Source of the DNA: a virus
Strand: one strand, 5' to 3'
Virus record (IMG/VR): IMGVR_UViG_3300042314_001708
Location: 1-44,127 of that record
Length of the DNA: 44,127 nt
Shown here: piece after piece, positions 34,868 through 43,831 of the stretch
How positions within the stretch are numbered: the first letter of the stretch is position 1
How the letters are laid out: each line of letters starts with the position of its first letter
Position numbers and translations under genes: made by a program
The notes under the pieces: model-generated
What the model saw: only the letters and a program-made list of their open reading frames with translations
What the model was told of the DNA's origin: nothing
The model's database searches: none

Positions 34868-35180
34868 AATAATAGAAATGGTTATCTAACAAAGCTTTAT
34901 AATCTTGTAATGACGGTATTAATGGAAATGGTATTGTCAATAATCCATTATTAGGGATATTCATCTCTAATCCCCCATACTGAGGATTAGCTTGTAAGAT
35001 TAACCACCCAAATAACGGAGAGCCATAATATTCCTGAGATATTTTATCCAAACGTGATACATTAACCATGTAAACATATCGTTTATCAGTACCTTTAGAG
35101 TTTAACTTAATACCAGGTACTACCGTCTGTTGACCATTAATTAAAAATGTAGAATATCTATCGTAGGTGCTTTCAGCCAT
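34857..35180 (-). CDS. gp53: Baseplate wedge protein, gp53 / LysM-like
   Basis: This 107-residue protein has a LysM-like core typical of gp53-family wedge proteins: YVYMVNVSRLDKISQEYYGSP, LFGWLILQANPQYGG, and the closing G-x-L-x-IPFPL strand (NNGLLTIPFPL). gp53 joins gp25 and gp6 in the inner baseplate of T4 and binds between wedges. T4 gp53 is longer (196 residues), so this is a minimal form. The gene is coupled on both sides: TAATG overlap with the 1678-residue gene and 11-nt overlap with the hub-like gene. A generic LysM tail protein (P2 gpX type) is the main alternative. Confidence 0.7.
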   Translation of the reverse strand: MAESTYDRYSTFLINGQQTVVPGIKLNSKGTDKRYVYMVNVSRLDKISQEYYGSPLFGWLILQANPQYGGLEMNIPNNGLLTIPFPLIPSLQDYKALLDNHFYYYGR

Positions 35181-38100
35181 TAGTTAAATTTGTGTTTACC
35201 ATTGAATGTTTGTTTATCATCATTACTATTCCCTGTTAAATATATATTCCTTAGTTGGGTTTGTAAATCTTCACTTGCACTTGTGTTAACGATATATGTG
35301 AATTTCCTATCTAAACTAGTGTCACCTTCTATTTTTGTATACTGTTGTTCGTATGTTGTCTTCCAATTACTAATCATAGTGTCAACATTCAATATTTTAT
35401 TTTTATATACATCATAAAATCTTGTAAAAATATAATCTACTATCAATAGTTTAACACTTTCCTCATTTGAAGTACCTTTAACTACCTCTGTCAAAAATTC
35501 TTGTTTCTTAGCGTCATCTCTAAAAATAGGGTCCATAATTACCATAAATTTAGCATCTCCGGGGGTAACTGGTGACTCAAATCCAAGTAATCCATTAACA
35601 TCAAAACTATCGGAAGGAATCAATCCAACATCTTTTAAAGAACTATGAAAACCATTTAATAGATTAGTTATAGATTGATAATCTTCACCAAATTTTGTAA
35701 ATGTATTTACATTATTTTCAGTAATACCTGAAATGTCTAAAACTTCCACGGATTGGTCTGAATTAATTTTTCCGTCGTGTAAAGAACTAATAAAATCAGA
35801 CTTTTCCATATTAATGACAAGTTGTTCTTGAGGTGATAATATTTCCTGTATTACTCTACTCAAATCTACTGTGAAATTATTTTTATAATTTTCAATATAT
35901 GTTGTCAAATTTTGATATACTCTTCGTTGGTCTCGTCTAGATAATACCCCTCCGTCTCTATTTTCAATTGCAATCTGCCATGATAACCCTTCACTACTAA
36001 CATTTGCAATAATATCTTCAAACCAATAATCAATCTCTCCCTGAATTTCATCAGGTTTACCAAAAATTTCAACTTTAGCCGAACTATCAGGTAAACTTGC
36101 GGTTCCCGTAGAATATATTCTTTTAGAACCAAAAACTTGAATAAGTGTTCCGTTATAGGGTGTTTTAAAATCGGTAAGTTTAGAAATTATAGTATTAATA
36201 TAATTTTGACAAGATGCCGAGAACCCATTCATGAATTCTTTATAGTTGATAACTCCTGTTGTTGATTCAGGTAATTCCTCCCTTGTTTCTTGAGTTCCAA
36301 TATATCCACCTCCGTTATTTTGAATCGCGTTTTGAATAATTGTTGAACCTGATTGTTCTCCTCTATCCTCTAATATTTGTCTAACCAAATCCTCATCTAA
36401 TTTTTTGAACGAGTCATCAGTCCATTCAGCCCTTTCATCAAATATTTCAGTATTTGCATAATAATTAAAAGACAACGCATTTTGTAATGTATCAATTGGT
36501 TCTTTCAATCCCGAACCTCCAACAAAGTTAAATCCTAATGTGACTTTAGCAATCATAGGTTGGAAACCAATTCCCTCAGGATTAAAATCATATACAGGTT
36601 CATAAGTAATATTAATTGAAGTCGGGATTATTCTCGTATTATAAAAATCACCAATTCTTAATATCAATACGGGAGGAGCACCAAAAGCGGTGTTAGTCGC
36701 GGCATTGTATTTTGGTTTTCCATCCGCCCCAATTGTTGGTATCGTATCCCCAGGTCTTGAACATTGGTTTAGGAATGTTAATCTTGAGTTAAGACCTTCG
36801 GGGGTCATTGAGTGGAAAGCCGGTGTAAAATATTTTAATTTTTGTTTTATTGAGTCATATATCATAGGATTTTCACCTTGTATTGCGGTAAAATAATCAC
36901 ATTCAGATAATAAGTCTCTTAAAACTTTTTTGGAAATTCCGTCTTTAATTTTTTGTGTTGTTGTAATTGTTGGTGGTGTAATAACTGGAGTATTTATACT
37001 CGGAACTGTGTTAGAACCTATATTATTTAAAATATTAGGAGGAGTCTCTCCTGTTGGGTCTCCTGTTGGGTCCCCTGTTGGGTCACCTGAAGGATTACCT
37101 GTCTCAATTTTAATATCTTTAATTGCAACTCTTCTACACCACATCGCTTGGTAAGAATAAATTGTATTATAGTTATTATTTGAACTAGCAGAATCTTGGT
37201 CACTACAACTTACACTTGGACTAGTTGCCCCTAATTCCTTAGCAACAACATTAACAGCCTCTTCACCTTGTGGTTCTTGATTTATTACAATTTTTTTATC
37301 TTCAATAAATTTTTGAAAGGCCTTACCGTAATCCGTAGTATCTTCTTTAAACCATTGTAAAACAGAATCAATCCTTCTTTTAGATAACCACTCGTTATAT
37401 TGAATAGTCGCAGGTCTTGACGCACTTCCAACTAAAGTTATTGTAATTGTTTTAATATTTGTATTATTATTTAAAACTGATACGACATCTTTTCTAAAAT
37501 CTTTTTCAATAGTGGCATTATGTTCAACAACATTCGTAAAAGTATTTGCAACTTGTTGTCTATTTGCAGCAGGTGCGTTAGTATTATACTTTGATTTCAT
37601 TCCAATATAGCTGTTATATGCTGTTTTCCAACTATAACTAGCCGTAGCAACACCCTTTTGTTGTGGTGGTGGAACATCGTTATGAAAATACCATCCTAAA
37701 TTCAAATATTTATTGTTTAAATCAGAACCAGGGTCCGTTTTATTAGTTTCAGGTTTAGTCTCAGAACCTCCAGTTCCGTTTCCTCCTCCACCACCATTAA
37801 TACCCTCATCACCTTCAATAACCCCTTCATCAGTACTAGTTGTATTTATACCCGCTTCAGCACCAACTTGAGCCAATTGGTCAGCATTAACAGATGGGTT
37901 TGTGATAATTTGTTGATAAGTAAATAAATCTCTTGTTGGGATAGTTGTAAATCTTCTCGCTAATTCATACAGGTCATATTTTAAACATCCTGCAAAAAAT
38001 GAATCAACAATTGAGTTAACTCTTTCAACATTTGACTCGTTTTGTAATATCTTATTAGTGATTGTATTCAATACCGAAGGATGGTCAACAATCATTTTCC

Positions 38101-40216
38101 AACTCAATGAACCAGAACGGGTTGTGTTTCTATAAGTATAAACAGGCTCAGGTCTTCCCAAAATTTCAACACTATCAAACCTTGGTGATATTGTCTCATT
38201 AAATGATAAATCATACGGTGGAAACCACATAACTCTACCTCCATTAGGTCCTCTCTCACAAACAGGTAAATCATCATACGTAAATCCAGGTCTGTTTGAA
38301 GTTCTCCAAGCTAAATTCTCAATTGAGAACATATACTTTTTAACTTTATTATCAACAATATTTGTTGACCCTGGATTTTTTAACGGAGCAATATTTAAAT
38401 TGTATGTATTATCAATTATTGAATATGTGAACTTTCTTCCAGAGGTAGTAATACCGTCTGTCTTTTGTAAATCATTATAAGTATAGTATGGAGTATCTTT
38501 AGCAAACACTCTACAATATTCTACTCCCCCTCCATGTTGGTTTGTCGCGGAATCATACGTATAACTAACAACTCTTGAACCTTTTGTCAACTCTCTATAT
38601 CCGTCATGGAAAACTTTAGATAATTGATTAATTGCGTTACCGACATGTCCCAATCTAGCAGTACCTGCAGGTGTTGAGTCTAATAATCTCTGAGTATTAT
38701 CTAATATACTACCATTTTTGAAATTAACATTTGATGAACTATAATTACCATCAAATTGACTACTAATCTGATTAAATTCAGGGTCTTGACTTGAGGAAAA
38801 ATCTCCTCCGACTTTTGCTCCGAATCCAGGATTATTATACCCTTGGGATGTCCAAACAAAACCACCAGCAATACCTCCAGCATTAATTGTTGGGTTACCT
38901 TTTAAACCAAATTTAAAATCTTGGTCTTCCCCCTCATACAACTTACCCATCGCATCAGGTCCAATAACAGGTGATTTAACCTGTTGTCCAACTGAATTTG
39001 TAGGTAATTGACCTGGAGGTGAGAAAATTGATGATGGGTCTGAGTTATTCTGTCCAATATAAAAATCTGACGGTGGAGCTTCTTCCCCATCAGTTAATCT
39101 TTCAATAATTTCTAAAAGACCTCTACCAAGATTTCTTGCTAAACCTCTATTATATCTTGGCTTATATTTGTTATAATCAATGTTATTAAATAACGCAGAC
39201 CTTTGTCCTTGCCCTGTATTACTTAAAAATACTTGTGAATAATCTGTATTAGTATCTAAACTTCCAAATATTGTTCTTGGGTCTCTACCTCCCGCAAATG
39301 CGGAAACAATTTGATTGGCAGCAGTAGGTCTCCACTGAGCCATATCTTCATCAAAGTAATCACCAGGAATAGGAGATGCTGGAAAATATGTTCCTGATAA
39401 CTTCAATAAGAAATTAGCTGCAAAATCAATAGGATTTTCAGGAACTGTAATTGAGTAATTCTTTTCAATTAAAGGAATTCTACCACTTGCAACTTGTGCC
39501 AATGCGACAGGGTCACTCAAAGCTTCTGAAAGATTCTCACGACCAAATGTCGCTCTTTCAATTTCTCTATCTACTCTATATTGTAACGCATCCCTTAAAA
39601 AGGTCGCCCCAAGTTGGGCCAACTGACTATCCTGTGAAAGTGACCCATTATCTCCTTGTGGTGTATTATCAAAAAGAATTGAATATGGAGAATATGAAGA
39701 TGGTAAAAAATTAACAGGTGTTGGGTTGGCGTAAAATGAATACGTTGGGACAAATTGTAAGTTATTTATCTCCTCCAAGAACACTTGGTCAAATGAATAC
39801 TTATTTAACGCAGGAATATTTTGTTCTGCCGTAACTTGAGCATAATTTGGCCACCCTTGTCCCACTAAACTTTGTTGTGGAAGTGAAGCGTCCATAACAT
39901 CATACTCGCCAGCATTAGCGTTTTGAACTAAAGGTAAAGATTGTGTTATTGTCACACCATATCCACCTTCAGGTCCATATTCATTTAAAACATATAATCC
40001 ATGATATTGGGGTGGGACTAAATTAGAGGGTGGGTCAGCAATTAAACTATCAGGTGAATCAATAACTGAAAAATTACTCTGAACATATTCAAAATTTTGT
40101 TGAGCAACAGGTGGAGTATAAGAACCCGCAATCGTATATGGTTGTAAGTTTCTTACGACTAAACCATTCCTGAAATTTTCAGTATTAAAAAATGATAATG
40201 GACTATCTATCGGCAT
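35180..40216 (-). CDS. Giant baseplate/tail protein with OmpA-like peptidoglycan-binding domain
   Basis: This 1678-residue protein lies between the tape measure and gp53-like genes. At about 880-1000 it has an OmpA C-terminal-like domain (ITITLVGSASRPATIQYNEW, LSKRRIDSVLQWF, then KIVINQEPQGEEA); the pattern [GA]-x-[AT]-S-x-x-x-[ILV]-x-x-N-x-x-LS-x-x-R-[AI]-x-x-V is the peptidoglycan-binding signature. A Gly-rich linker (about 805-828) precedes it and a GDPT tandem repeat (about 1040-1052) follows. Around 650-700, GRVMWFPPYDLSFNE and ILGRPEPVYTYRN look like a conserved tail module, with a second beta module near 1215-1250 (FNFVGGSGLKEP). By position it may take the place of the gp48/gp54 tube-initiation proteins, perhaps fused to a wall-binding domain. 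The OmpA call is stronger than the rest. A TATTTAT motif lies 6 nt upstream. Confidence 0.6.
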   Translation of the reverse strand: MPIDSPLSFFNTENFRNGLVVRNLQPYTIAGSYTPPVAQQNFEYVQSNFSVIDSPDSLIADPPSNLVPPQYHGLYVLNEYGPEGGYGVTITQSLPLVQNANAGEYDVMDASLPQQSLVGQGWPNYAQVTAEQNIPALNKYSFDQVFLEEINNLQFVPTYSFYANPTPVNFLPSSYSPYSILFDNTPQGDNGSLSQDSQLAQLGATFLRDALQYRVDREIERATFGRENLSEALSDPVALAQVASGRIPLIEKNYSITVPENPIDFAANFLLKLSGTYFPASPIPGDYFDEDMAQWRPTAANQIVSAFAGGRDPRTIFGSLDTNTDYSQVFLSNTGQGQRSALFNNIDYNKYKPRYNRGLARNLGRGLLEIIERLTDGEEAPPSDFYIGQNNSDPSSIFSPPGQLPTNSVGQQVKSPVIGPDAMGKLYEGEDQDFKFGLKGNPTINAGGIAGGFVWTSQGYNNPGFGAKVGGDFSSSQDPEFNQISSQFDGNYSSSNVNFKNGSILDNTQRLLDSTPAGTARLGHVGNAINQLSKVFHDGYRELTKGSRVVSYTYDSATNQHGGGVEYCRVFAKDTPYYTYNDLQKTDGITTSGRKFTYSIIDNTYNLNIAPLKNPGSTNIVDNKVKKYMFSIENLAWRTSNRPGFTYDDLPVCERGPNGGRVMWFPPYDLSFNETISPRFDSVEILGRPEPVYTYRNTTRSGSLSWKMIVDHPSVLNTITNKILQNESNVERVNSIVDSFFAGCLKYDLYELARRFTTIPTRDLFTYQQIITNPSVNADQLAQVGAEAGINTTSTDEGVIEGDEGINGGGGGNGTGGSETKPETNKTDPGSDLNNKYLNLGWYFHNDVPPPQQKGVATASYSWKTAYNSYIGMKSKYNTNAPAANRQQVANTFTNVVEHNATIEKDFRKDVVSVLNNNTNIKTITITLVGSASRPATIQYNEWLSKRRIDSVLQWFKEDTTDYGKAFQKFIEDKKIVINQEPQGEEAVNVVAKELGATSPSVSCSDQDSASSNNNYNTIYSYQAMWCRRVAIKDIKIETGNPSGDPTGDPTGDPTGETPPNILNNIGSNTVPSINTPVITPPTITTTQKIKDGISKKVLRDLLSECDYFTAIQGENPMIYDSIKQKLKYFTPAFHSMTPEGLNSRLTFLNQCSRPGDTIPTIGADGKPKYNAATNTAFGAPPVLILRIGDFYNTRIIPTSINITYEPVYDFNPEGIGFQPMIAKVTLGFNFVGGSGLKEPIDTLQNALSFNYYANTEIFDERAEWTDDSFKKLDEDLVRQILEDRGEQSGSTIIQNAIQNNGGGYIGTQETREELPESTTGVINYKEFMNGFSASCQNYINTIISKLTDFKTPYNGTLIQVFGSKRIYSTGTASLPDSSAKVEIFGKPDEIQGEIDYWFEDIIANVSSEGLSWQIAIENRDGGVLSRRDQRRVYQNLTTYIENYKNNFTVDLSRVIQEILSPQEQLVINMEKSDFISSLHDGKINSDQSVEVLDISGITENNVNTFTKFGEDYQSITNLLNGFHSSLKDVGLIPSDSFDVNGLLGFESPVTPGDAKFMVIMDPIFRDDAKKQEFLTEVVKGTSNEESVKLLIVDYIFTRFYDVYKNKILNVDTMISNWKTTYEQQYTKIEGDTSLDRKFTYIVNTSASEDLQTQLRNIYLTGNSNDDKQTFNGKHKFN
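37054..37096 (-). repeat. 12-bp tandem repeat encoding GDPT
   Basis: The plus strand shows about three successive units of CCTGTTGGGTCN, giving GDPTGDPTGDPTGE in the 1678-residue protein. It is a short flexible linker next to the OmpA-like domain and could vary in copy number without a frameshift. Confidence 0.8.
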
Positions 40217-40254: not shown

Positions 40255-42219
40255 TTAACCTTCCGTTTTTGTTAAAAACTTTTCTAAAGTTGGAACGAAA
40301 TCCGCCAAGAACCCTTGGGATAACATATAATCTTTAAACCACGCTTCAACTCCACTAAACTTATGTTCAATTTCAACCTTACCCGATGCAGTAACCGTTG
40401 AATTGGTTTGACCCCCTGATTTATTATCAGAACTACCCGTTGGTATATTTGGAGATAATAAAACTGAGTCGTCTTTATCAGCAAAAAAACTTCCTTTTTC
40501 ACCCATTACAACTAAGCCACCATCTGGACTAATTACACCATCGGAAACTTGTCTACCATTCATTAAAGATTTTACAAAATTTTGTAAGGCATTAATCATA
40601 TCAGGAGTAATTTGAAACGGGGTGTCGTATTCGGGATTGCTTTGGAATGCTTCCTGTTGGTTTTTCCCATAAACATCTGAAAATTCTTTAAAATCTTCTA
40701 TTTTTTTTGCCCCAATCTCTTTAATAACCTCTGTCAGTTTTTTTCCAGCATCTGCCAAAGTTGTTTCACCCTTGATGAGGGACTCTAACATTTGGTCAAT
40801 TTGTTTACTCGCCAAGTTAATTTTAGTTGTAATACCTTTTGTCCCTTCTTCTCCATATAAAACATCCATTAATGTCTGAACAACAGGTTCAACAGACCCC
40901 CCTGCAAACGACACTTTATCCTGAGCAACTTTTGATGCTGCCAAAGCGGTCGGAACTCTACTTGTTCCCGCTTTAAATGCGTTTGAAATATTCGCTAAAT
41001 GTCCATTCGCATCTCTTAATAATTCCTCAGTACTTTTATTTGCGTTTTGTTGAGCTTTTTCAACACCCTTTAAATCATCTTTTTTAAGGTCATCAACAGC
41101 TTTAATAACATTATAACCTAGGTCTTTATCATAAACTTCAATTTCATATTTTCCAGTTGTCTCATTAAGTTGAGCCATATTCGCAACCATCGTTCTAGCT
41201 TCCTCACTTGCAAATTCATCAATACTTGGAAATTTAATTTGTCCCATTTTAGCTTCCAATTCAAAAGCATTTCTACCCATTTTTTCCAACTCTTTAGCCG
41301 GTATACCTAATGTTGCTGCAACTTCTCTAATCTGTCTTTGAGCCCCTGGCATAACAACAAATCTTTGTTGTTTTTCATCAAATTCCATAAATGATTTTGA
41401 TATCTCAACAATATTTCTTTGTAACTCCGCAGGGTCATTTTCAGCCATGTTCATTAAAGATATTGGGTCTAACATTCCTGTTACTTGGACCCCCATTCTT
41501 TGTAGACCCGCAGCCATATCAAGAGCCTTCTGAGGGTCAAATAAATTGTTTGCCAAATCCAAAGTGGTCTTCATATTAGCTTTAAACAAAATTGATTCAG
41601 TCGCCATTTTAGCCATTCCTTGAACTCCATTATCAAAATTAAATAGATTTAACTCAGAAGCATTTGCGTTAATTTGTTTAAATACCGCACTGGCACTTAC
41701 ACCATATCTTGATGCCGATTGTATAATATCTTCAGAACTTTTTAGTGTTCCTTGAACGGTTAATCCTAAATTTTTAAAAGTTTCGTAATTACTAGACGCA
41801 GCCTGAACTGCAGTTTGTGATATACCCTTTGTTAACTCAGCTTGAACTAAAAATCTTTCATATTGGTCCCCCTGTAATGTAAAATTAGTTTGTTCCTGTT
41901 CAGTAATTTTTTGTTGTAAAGACGCAATATCTGCGAATGTAAAACCATATTCTTCAGCCGCTTCTTTACCCGCAATAAGATTTTGTTTAATTTTTTGAGA
42001 GTATATATCACCTCCACCCATCGTTTTATTAAACGACGATGCAAGTCCTTCTAATTGACTAAAAATTGATGCAAACGACTTTAAAATTTCAGCAGGATTA
42101 AACGCATTTTTAAAATACGTTGCCATACTTTCACCGGCTTCCGTTAACGGGTCGGCTAAATCTTTTGTTTGCAGTTTTTCTGTTTTACCAGCTTCACCTG
42201 ATTCTCCTGTTTGTAACAT
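40255..42219 (-). CDS. gp29: Tail tape measure protein
   Basis: This 654-residue protein is predominantly alpha-helical and sits just after the tail assembly chaperone, the standard place of the tape measure gene. The N-terminal half has long Ala/Gln-rich helices (ASIFSQLEGLASSFNKTMGG, IQSASRYGVSASAVFKQINA, AAGLQRMGVQVTGM), and the C-terminus contains a predicted helical part followed by a small beta segment (FFADKDDSVLLSPN). It is of similar size to T4 gp29 (590 residues), so by the usual scaling of about 0.15 nm per residue the tail would be near 100 nm. No clear membrane helix or peptidase motif is seen. A TATTTAT motif lies 13 nt before the ATG. Confidence 0.8.
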   Translation of the reverse strand: MLQTGESGEAGKTEKLQTKDLADPLTEAGESMATYFKNAFNPAEILKSFASIFSQLEGLASSFNKTMGGGDIYSQKIKQNLIAGKEAAEEYGFTFADIASLQQKITEQEQTNFTLQGDQYERFLVQAELTKGISQTAVQAASSNYETFKNLGLTVQGTLKSSEDIIQSASRYGVSASAVFKQINANASELNLFNFDNGVQGMAKMATESILFKANMKTTLDLANNLFDPQKALDMAAGLQRMGVQVTGMLDPISLMNMAENDPAELQRNIVEISKSFMEFDEKQQRFVVMPGAQRQIREVAATLGIPAKELEKMGRNAFELEAKMGQIKFPSIDEFASEEARTMVANMAQLNETTGKYEIEVYDKDLGYNVIKAVDDLKKDDLKGVEKAQQNANKSTEELLRDANGHLANISNAFKAGTSRVPTALAASKVAQDKVSFAGGSVEPVVQTLMDVLYGEEGTKGITTKINLASKQIDQMLESLIKGETTLADAGKKLTEVIKEIGAKKIEDFKEFSDVYGKNQQEAFQSNPEYDTPFQITPDMINALQNFVKSLMNGRQVSDGVISPDGGLVVMGEKGSFFADKDDSVLLSPNIPTGSSDNKSGGQTNSTVTASGKVEIEHKFSGVEAWFKDYMLSQGFLADFVPTLEKFLTKTEG

Positions 42220-42254: not shown

Positions 42255-42434
42255 TTACTCTTGTCGGCTATCACTTACTAGTTTATCCAAAAGAAATCTT
42301 CTAGTGCTTATAGGCATTATCATAAAATCACTATACGATATATGAAGAAATTTTGCTAAATAATAAAATTCAAGGTTTCTACCCTGTGAGTAATCAGAAG
42401 AAAGGACGAAAAAACTCAACCCCAAAGAGAATAT
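42255..42434 (-). CDS. Probable frameshift-expressed extension of the tail assembly chaperone
   Basis: A 59-codon frame with no good start codon overlaps the end of the gp26-like gene in the +1 frame and ends at TAA 42255-42257. Its protein, ending NLEFYYLAKFLHISYSDF and MIMPISTRRFLLDKLVSD, looks like a genuine helical domain: the pattern H-x-S-x-x-[DE]-[FIL]-[ML]-x-[ML]-P-x-x-x-R-R-x-[FLW] resembles the short C-terminal domains of tail chaperones encoded just before tape measure genes. The only ATGs are inside the domain; two TTGs occur early. A run of six U's in GAG UUU UUU CGU (plus strand 42409-42414) inside the overlap is a candidate +1 or -2 slip site. The fused product would have about 295 residues. 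Independent TTG initiation is the alternative. Confidence 0.6.
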   Translation of the reverse strand: MFSLGLSFFVLSSDYSQGRNLEFYYLAKFLHISYSDFMIMPISTRRFLLDKLVSDSRQE

Positions 42435-43183: not shown

Positions 43184-43303
43184 TCAATCCTTATTCTCTT
43201 TTTTGTTATGTCTATTATCAAATTCTTCTTGTGTTTCAAATTTTTTACCACAAGTTGGACATACAAATTCGGTATTACCTGAAAAAAAAAGTTCCATACA
43301 CAT
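43184..43303 (-). CDS. Small zinc-finger-like protein
   Basis: A 39-codon ORF (MCMELFFSGNTEFVCPTCGK, then KFETQEEFDNRHNKKENKD) lies between the tail tube and gp26-like genes. FVCPTCGKKF followed by H 13 residues after the second Cys resembles a C2H2 finger, but the final His is missing; Asn, Glu or Asp would have to replace it. The Cys-x-x-Cys pattern and its fit in an otherwise empty 199-nt gap support a real gene. The ATG lies in the loop of the terminator hairpin after the tube gene, and the T-tract is translated as Leu-Phe-Phe, so the start is uncertain; no other start precedes the Cys pair. Confidence 0.5.
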   Translation of the reverse strand: MCMELFFSGNTEFVCPTCGKKFETQEEFDNRHNKKENKD

Positions 43304-43316
43304 AAGTATATGGAAC
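43282..43316 (-). terminator. Rho-independent terminator after tail tube gene
   Basis: A perfect 8-bp stem GTTCCATA/TATGGAAC (plus-strand arms 43291-43298 and 43309-43316, 10-nt loop) is followed on the minus strand by nine T's. It lies 27 nt after the tube stop codon, consistent with separate high-level expression of the tube protein. Confidence 0.85.
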
Positions 43317-43328
43317 AAATTTTTATTA

Positions 43329-43342: not shown

Positions 43343-43831
43343 TTAGTATACTAAGATACAACGGTCAGGTCTTAGACTTGCCGAAATTGTTGCCAAAGCG
43401 TCTTGAGAGTAATTCAAACTATCAAAGTTCACATTTGTTAAGAAAGTTCCTTGTAGAATCCATTTCTCAACAACAACTCCTGTTGGGTCTAACAATTCCA
43501 AATCAATATCTTTCTTATATCCAGCTGCGTATCCCATACGTCCTGTAACAGATTCAGCATGTAAACGAACCCATTCCATTAAAGCTTGAGCCGCAGAAGG
43601 TCCGATTGGGTCACGGAACTTAACATTAATTTCATTCCAAGTAAATCTACCCGCAACATATGTTGAAGTATTTAAAAATTGAATTTCAGTTGAATTAATT
43701 TTTATATTTGGTCTTGATGTTGATTCCACGAACCACTCATTAATCCCTAAAGATGAAGGGAATCTCAAAATGAATCTGTTTTGTCTTTTGGGTTCGTAAG
43801 GAACCGGCATTTTCATCAGTAAATCAGCCAT
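43343..43831 (-). CDS. gp19: Tail tube protein, T4 gp19-like
   Basis: This 162-residue protein forms the inner tail tube. It matches the gp19 family in size (T4 gp19 is 163 residues) and sequence: RQNRFILRFPSSLGINEWFV at the N-terminus, STRPNIK, the central TWNEINVKFRDPIGPSAAQAL followed by MEWVRLHAE, and the C-terminal pair of strands (LDPTGVVVEKWILQGTF, then SYSQDALATISASLRPDRC-like). A TATTTAT motif 32 nt upstream and a strong terminator downstream make it a likely single-gene, high-expression unit, as needed for a protein present in over a hundred copies per virion. Confidence 0.92.
   Translation of the reverse strand: MADLLMKMPVPYEPKRQNRFILRFPSSLGINEWFVESTSRPNIKINSTEIQFLNTSTYVAGRFTWNEINVKFRDPIGPSAAQALMEWVRLHAESVTGRMGYAAGYKKDIDLELLDPTGVVVEKWILQGTFLTNVNFDSLNYSQDALATISASLRPDRCILVY

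Follow-up and report, generated by a model that had tools for sequence, protein, structure and literature searches.

A tail assembly chaperone gene in a bacterial virus lineage that is very likely decoded in two ways by +1 frameshifting at UUU_CGN

Introduction

The gp26-like gene described here is, in all likelihood, a tail assembly chaperone gene that is decoded in two ways, the second of them by programmed +1 frameshifting at UUU_CGN; the case is built on comparison of the sequence with its relatives. The gene lies in a viral DNA of 44,127 nt (IMG/VR record IMGVR_UViG_3300042314_001708), referred to throughout as the window, and all coordinates are positions within it. The 3′ end of the gene overlaps a frame that encodes a C-terminal extension, which is strongly conserved and very probably translated.

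G-T frameshifting is described as widely conserved in long-tailed phages ‘except T4’ in a 2016 review (PMC5009743). The occurrence of short and long chaperones as separate genes in T4-like phages has been attributed to Vladimirov, Gautam and Davidson 2022 (as cited in PMC10885494 and PMC12846349), and PMC12846349 also credits that study with poly-T −1 signals in T4-like phages. Going by these sources, it is already known that these genes encode chaperones, that T4 has a pair of them and that a −1 version exists. No report of +1 shifting in PF12322 chaperones was found in the literature searched, where the work of Vladimirov 2022 is represented by the papers that cite it. As far as that literature shows, a +1 shift at UUU_CGN is a new version of the known tail chaperone frameshifting. 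An earlier note, made from the letters of the window, had proposed a frameshifted tail chaperone extension in a T4-like setting, a proposal that conservation, position and gp26-family homology now support.

Organization of the locus

The relevant genes lie on the minus strand in the order tail tube, gp26-like, extension frame and 654-aa ORF (Table 1). The gp26-like protein matches the Pfam family PF12322 (T4_baseplate) at 36.4 bits, above the curated cut-off of 24.5, and the PHROGs family phrog_150 (baseplate hub) with an E value of 9.7e-10. The extension frame occupies most of the gap between gp26 and the next gene. It is indeed, as the earlier note had said, a frame of 59 codons that overlaps the 3′ end of gp26 and has no credible start: in the window, two TTG are all that resembles a start until the 12th codon past the shift is reached. 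A +1 shift at TTT TTT CGT joins 245 residues of gp26 to 50 residues of the extension, giving exactly the fused length of 295 residues that had been foreseen.

Table 1 Features of the chaperone locus and its neighbours in the window
Feature	Coordinates	Strand	Remarks
Tail tube gene, upstream of the gp26-like gene	43343..43831	−	phrog_4542 tail tube protein, E 4.1e-29
44-codon ORF, between tube and chaperone genes	43184..43318	−	TTG start
gp26-like gene, short tail assembly chaperone form, 249 aa	42394..43143	−	ATG to TGA; PF12322
+1-frame open stretch, 59 sense codons	42258..42434	−	No conserved start; stop TAA at 42255..42257
GGGG	42420..42423	−	Six to nine bases 5′ of the shift site; possible Shine-Dalgarno-like stimulator
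Shift site TTT TTT CGT	42406..42414	−	Inside the overlap of gp26 and extension
P-site codon UUU	42409..42411	−	Would re-pair to UUC, 42408..42410
A-site codon CGT	42406..42408	−	
C-terminal extension after a +1 shift, 50 codons	42258..42407	−	Long form of 295 aa
654-aa ORF, presumed tape measure protein	40255..42219	−	Presumed from position only
1678-aa ORF, past the presumed tape measure gene	35180..40216	−	

The 654-aa ORF gave no convincing family match in PHROGs or Pfam; a single BLASTP comparison with the annotated tape measure of SP-15 yielded a weak E value of 0.026. An annotated tape measure gene follows gp26 in LIS04. The annotated tape measure gene of SP-15 follows gp26 and one 39-aa ORF, which itself lies inside the extension frame. 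A host search of genome_contigs found no relatives of the extension or of gp26.

Conservation of the extension frame and selection upon it

In our judgement an open frame of 59 codons is unremarkable by itself, and in one genome it could arise by chance; the remarkable part is its conservation. Our first set comprised 63 IMG/VR relatives, five of which run off the contig and 58 of which reach the end of gp26. The +1 frame is open in all 58 covering relatives, extending 127-172 nt beyond the start of the gp26 stop codon, and once duplicates are merged, these relatives represent 28 different DNA stretches, with 20 different proteins encoded by the extension. A second set was obtained by searching with the extension only (best 80 of 573 loci, 48 distinct). 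The stretch TTTTTTCG stands at the junction in 48/48 of these distinct loci, and at least 222 open zero-frame codons lie upstream of it in 47/48. For the third set, the DNA pattern was scanned while allowing four to eight bases between GAN and CGN (at least 80 loci, 76 distinct); exactly six bases separate the two in all 80 matches listed, and in all 80 the +1 extension is open, three of them ending at a contig edge. The three sets overlap one another. Their union contains, among the matches listed, 139 distinct extensions that are complete and stand behind UUU_CGN, and the first set pooled with the second (best 80 of 573) holds the 73 distinct extension sequences that underlie the counts below.

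Substitutions in these sequences bear the mark of selection at the protein level. Over the 36 codons after the overlap, uncorrected pN/pS is 0.17 in the +1 frame, and the two remaining frames give 1.16 and 1.68 (30 disjoint pairs, 73 distinct sequences), and over all 502 pairs it is 0.20 versus 0.88 and 1.78. By this measure the extension frame evolves as a protein. The notion that the frame overlaps gp26 by chance, or that a fusion has decayed or been mis-sequenced, sits badly with such values, with the open frame in each of the covering relatives and with the lack of any length variant in the 80 matches listed of the gap-tolerant scan, and we attach practically no weight to it.

The earlier note had raised the case of an extension encoded elsewhere with its own ATG. 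The extension profile finds a single match, at this place, in 12/12 window-clade records; a separate ATG-started ORF for the extension does occur in two loci of a different clade, described below. The same profile matches the uncultured huge phage LR756508 at the expected place (E 0.0011) and found no match in LIS04, GXN1, SP-15 or T4. The earlier note had also looked to a profile search of the 59-residue frame for a link with known tail chaperones. That link did not materialize: the frame alone has no match up to an E value of 1 in PHROGs or Pfam.

The probable shift site

The sequence TTY TTT CGN is present at the junction in 73/73 distinct relatives among the matches listed. In the same distinct sequences it is accompanied downstream by CCT in 72/73, a following TTC in 73/73 and a second TTC in 70/73. 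Six U occur in the window and in 72/73 distinct members among the matches listed. In four members (L013, L056, L140 and L147) the +1 frame is closed by a TAG that abuts TTTTTTCG on its 5′ side, which would place the shift in them after the TAG, within the last gp26 codons. Eight of the 73 distinct members (such as L014, L101, L144 and L154) do not have the usual stop and read further; hence this stop codon is not the signal. The candidate stretch that remains is GAN TTT TTT CGN CCT TTC TTC, in which the second TTT is the sole codon whose tRNA would still meet a cognate codon after moving by one base (UUU to UUC).

The two Phe codons can be compared beyond the window clade. Fifty-eight +1 rows were chosen for the tree described below, and 52 of them encode Phe-Phe close to the end of the protein. 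UUU is used for the second Phe in 52/52 of these, and UUC for the first in 14/52. The window uses TTT and TTC in a ratio of 577:189, and the contrast between second and first Phe codon serves as an internal control for this codon bias. The base after the second UUU is C in 42 rows, U in nine and A in one; the site of LIS04 reads UUU_A and that of SP-15 reads UUU_CAC. UUC UUU CGN is found in L034, a member of the window clade, and also in GXN1 and others. Phe-Phe is missing from L197, L202, L205, L207 and L211, and from L065, which has UUU_C.

The earlier note had read the six-U run as permitting slippage by +1 or −2. The run is there, but the probable slip signal is UUU_C and not the U run itself. 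Slippage by −2, which would add one residue to the product, finds its footing in the six U, which let UUU re-pair at −2 in the window and in 72/73 distinct members among the matches listed, and in the precedent of phage Mu, where gpGT arises by a −2 shift (PMC3498833). In L034 and 13 further +1 rows, however, the codons are UUC UUU and the second UUU would meet UCU, while the C after the second UUU, needless for a −2 shift, is kept in 73/73 among the matches listed. We consider a −2 shift improbable. A +1 shift is the most likely event, because relatives with UUC UUU CGN bar re-pairing at −2 and because the second codon is always UUU among the Phe-Phe rows when the first may be UUC.

The six-T run before the junction would also suit slippage of RNA polymerase, by which an mRNA short of one U would be read normally. 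Runs of six are short for RNA polymerase slippage, and members with TTC TTT C, where only three T stand in a row, still conserve the frame; this explanation is highly improbable.

Alternatively, the extension could be a separate small gene translated from a weak or internal start inside gp26. The genes of 15/20 distinct proteins have a TTG five codons ahead of the shift codon, and those of 4/20 (L016, L028, L034 and L058) have an ATG eight codons ahead of it, and outside the window clade a separate ATG-started ORF exists in L172 and L178 and is annotated in RHph_I1_18. Yet no single start is conserved, whereas the slip site is fixed, and five of the 73 distinct members among the matches listed (L013, L056, L116, L140 and L147) have no +1-frame ATG, GTG or TTG within the stretch that ends with codon 12 of the extension. 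The ATG of L013 is the 13th codon after the shift, inside the first predicted helix. For the window clade we regard an independent gene as quite unlikely, and +1 slippage at UUU_CGN as the preferred reading.

In L094, upstream of position 1169, just 19 open zero-frame codons precede an otherwise typical shift site. In one distinct sequence, whose row is that of L094, GCT replaces CCT.

Codons and RNA around the site

The putative A-site codon is CGT in 35, CGC in 21 and CGG in 17 of the 73 distinct sequences among the matches listed. Across 23 ORFs of the window, CGG and CGC each account for 2/442 Arg codons and CGT for 44/442, and TTT-CGN occurs in frame once. Selection for slow decoding in the A site is not proven by these figures, since the window's own A-site codon is CGT, the commonest CGN in the window, and since Arg together with UUU_C forces CGN in any case.

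Glycine ahead of the site is encoded by GGG in 73/73 distinct sequences among the matches listed, making GGGG; GGG amounts to 152/936 Gly codons (16%) in the 23 window ORFs. Pairing with an anti-Shine-Dalgarno tail of the Bacteroidota type is within the strongest ~6% of gp26 10-mers (median of 67 loci). This pairing is modest and GGGG is absent at the same place in the other +1 rows listed; its role as a Shine-Dalgarno-like stimulator is thus suggestive only. Downstream of the site, no clear stimulatory RNA structure emerged: in 40 of 67 loci, compared with simple shuffles, mean z was −0.83 and −1.17. On the upstream side, the adjoining 60 bases are predicted to fold more strongly than simple shuffles in 40 window-clade loci, with a mean z of −2.15.

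One gene family with several arrangements

PF12322 is present in one copy in 16/16 non-T4 records searched, many of them fragments, and in two copies in T4. LIS04, GXN1, SP-15 and LR756508 each have one copy, with a +1 extension after gp26. QdP_Psa3 (L071:2962-3838) combines a TTC TTT C junction with a +1 extension; its protein has no Pfam match and matches phrog_13792, a family of unknown function that, by reason of the shared junction and extension, may join the same chaperone family. In most members of a third +1 clade the site reads UUY UUU UGG. Inside that clade, the extension of L172 and L178 (after position 1708) has an ORF of its own, which begins with ATG just past the gp26 stop, and fusion is therefore not universal.

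Extensions in the −1 frame are also found. XacN1 and RHph_I1_18, both with PF12322, have one, annotated as a separate ORF in the latter. T TTT TTY with a −1 extension occurs in the cyanophages and relatives P-HM2, syn9, S-RIM14, phiM12, Melnitz-3, pf16, Cr30 and Moby, where annotation treats the extension as a small gene, either gp51-like or hypothetical, and where it has no common start. Among cyanophage-like loci of IMG/VR (best 80 of 576, less one that was too short and one duplicate), T TTT TTC is separated from the stop by one codon in 78/78 distinct loci, each of which has a −1 extension. A search for SP-15-like loci (35 loci, three too short and five duplicates) returned 24 distinct loci with a +1 and three with a −1 extension. 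In both searches the extension was assigned to the frame that stays open furthest beyond the stop.

Two PF12322 genes each are present in T4, Aeromonas phage 31 and RB43. The earlier note had described T4 gp26 and gp51 as separate genes; they are two genes, but both belong to PF12322 and T4 is not a simple exception. The two look like a short form and an in-frame long form. The gp51-like long gene and the gp26-like short gene of RB43 (L081:2501-3794) are in tandem on the same strand and overlap, and the pair of T4 is divergent; the RB43 pair looks like a tandem duplication. In another T4-like contig (L306:1501-2246), the gp51 homologue is not readable in one frame.

Profile comparison with hhalign gave a probability of 97 for −1 extensions against gp51 ends and of 94.8 for window extensions against SP-15-type extensions; the value for window extensions was moderate against −1 extensions (47.5) and weak against T4-type gp51 ends (18). 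Phe-Phe near the C-terminus is invariant in 31/31 aligned rows. We built an unrooted tree from 84 chosen rows, from which columns filled in fewer than 30% of rows were dropped. It separates +1 and split rows from −1 and T4-type rows (bootstrap 95, SH-aLRT 58, 96% of bootstrap trees), and the four states need three changes on it, the least possible. A quick tree needs the same three changes but has the long-branched −1 row XacN1 joining the +1 side at its base; the tree tool warns of long branches for XacN1 and for the T4-type rows. Being unrooted, the tree gives no order of +1 and −1.

Predicted structures

The model of the short form is of good confidence (pLDDT 86.6), and its predicted fold matches the baseplate hub subunit of SP-15 with a Foldseek E value of 2.6e-17. 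Foldseek found no match for the gp26 model in the PDB at E ≤ 0.001. Among PDB chains re-aligned with VIA-align, the HK97 tail assembly chaperone 2ob9 came second (Z 5.5, rmsd 4.3, 92 residues), after 3fgx (Z 5.9, rmsd 4.5, 86 residues). The fold link to 2ob9 suggested by these models is moderate, below the level that would settle a chaperone fold.

The compact helical domain that had been read from the translation of the extension reappears in its AF2 model as three predicted helices (pLDDT 89.5). The best BFVD row for this model comes from Microbacterium phage BonaeVitae and is named a tail assembly chaperone (TM 0.87 by query, E 0.29), and 5/50 BFVD rows among the matches listed are named tail assembly chaperones; none of the 50 matches listed reaches E ≤ 0.001. 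Sequence searches of solved structures returned chance-level rows only.

Discussion

A working scheme can be proposed for the window gene. Most ribosomes would read on to UGA and release the 249-residue short form, which would be the equivalent of lambda G. A minority, standing at Phe-Phe with the Arg codon CGN in the A site, would slip by +1: the P-site tRNA-Phe would leave UUU, pair with UUC, and reading would continue in the +1 frame. The product would be the 295-residue long form, similar to lambda GT, with its predicted C-terminal domain of three helices. If lambda is a guide, the short form may cover the tape measure protein in many copies, and the long form, present in fewer, may bring in tube subunits.

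Such a locus has much in common with lambda G/GT and its counterparts in P2, Mu and HK97, which likewise follow the tube gene and comprise a short form with a small C-terminal domain in a second 3′ frame. Their shifts, however, are mostly −1 (−2 in Mu), whereas that of the window would be +1 at UUU_C, and in the searches run these chaperones had no sequence match to window proteins. T4 gp26 and gp51 share PF12322 with the window, and the extra C-terminal stretch of gp51 matches the −1 extensions; T4 has two genes, however, where the window has one gene with a putative shift, and the window extension only weakly resembles gp51 ends. The −1 chaperones of cyanophages and T4-like phages share with the window the gene family, the place of Phe-Phe and an extension before the next gene, but the cyanophage type shifts by −1 at U UUU UUC and the window lineage by an apparent +1.

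A close likeness of signal is that to influenza PA-X, for which a +1 shift at UCC_UUU_CGU was shown by mass spectrometry (Firth 2012, PMC3498833). The same paper argued for P-site slippage from UUU to UUC and predicted a UUU_C class of sites. PA-X and the window share the P-site tetranucleotide UUU_C, an Arg CGN codon in the A site and the proposed +1 direction; PA-X belongs to a eukaryotic virus and has UCC as the preceding codon, whereas the candidate site of the window lineage belongs to a bacterial virus and is preceded by UUU or UUC. A review notes that the bulky modification of base 37 of tRNA-Phe may hinder +1 slippage at UUU_U. Shifts by +1 in phage tail genes have precedents in the archaeal virus HSTV-2, whose shift is called ‘very likely +1’, and in Listeria phages, with +1 at CCC_UGA in tsh (tail shaft protein) genes (both PMC5009743). 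The Listeria site thus lies in a tail shaft gene and is CCC_UGA, in contrast to UUU_CGN in a chaperone gene.

It seems reasonably likely that this lineage of bacterial viruses uses the UUU_CGN +1 signal described from eukaryotic viruses, and that the direction of shifting at one Phe-Phe hinge is an old inherited trait, +1 on one side of the tree and −1 on the other, and that the separate genes 26 and 51 of T4 emerged from within the −1 side. The T4 ‘exception’ would then be framed as part of one family that makes two chaperones by +1 shifting, by −1 shifting, from two genes or from split genes, versions that appear mostly to arise from the same hinge. The 139 distinct complete extensions behind UUU_CGN among the matches listed offer material from bacterial viruses for testing rules of +1 slippage. 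The finding also points to long forms of chaperones that are missing or split in annotation.

Neighbouring open reading frames

Beyond the presumed tape measure gene, the 1678-aa ORF is without a strong family match and contains a weak OmpA-like stretch (E 0.08). The 44-codon ORF that separates the tube gene from the chaperone gene codes for a CxxC peptide, CPTCGKKFETQEEFDNRHNK, which resembles a zinc finger.
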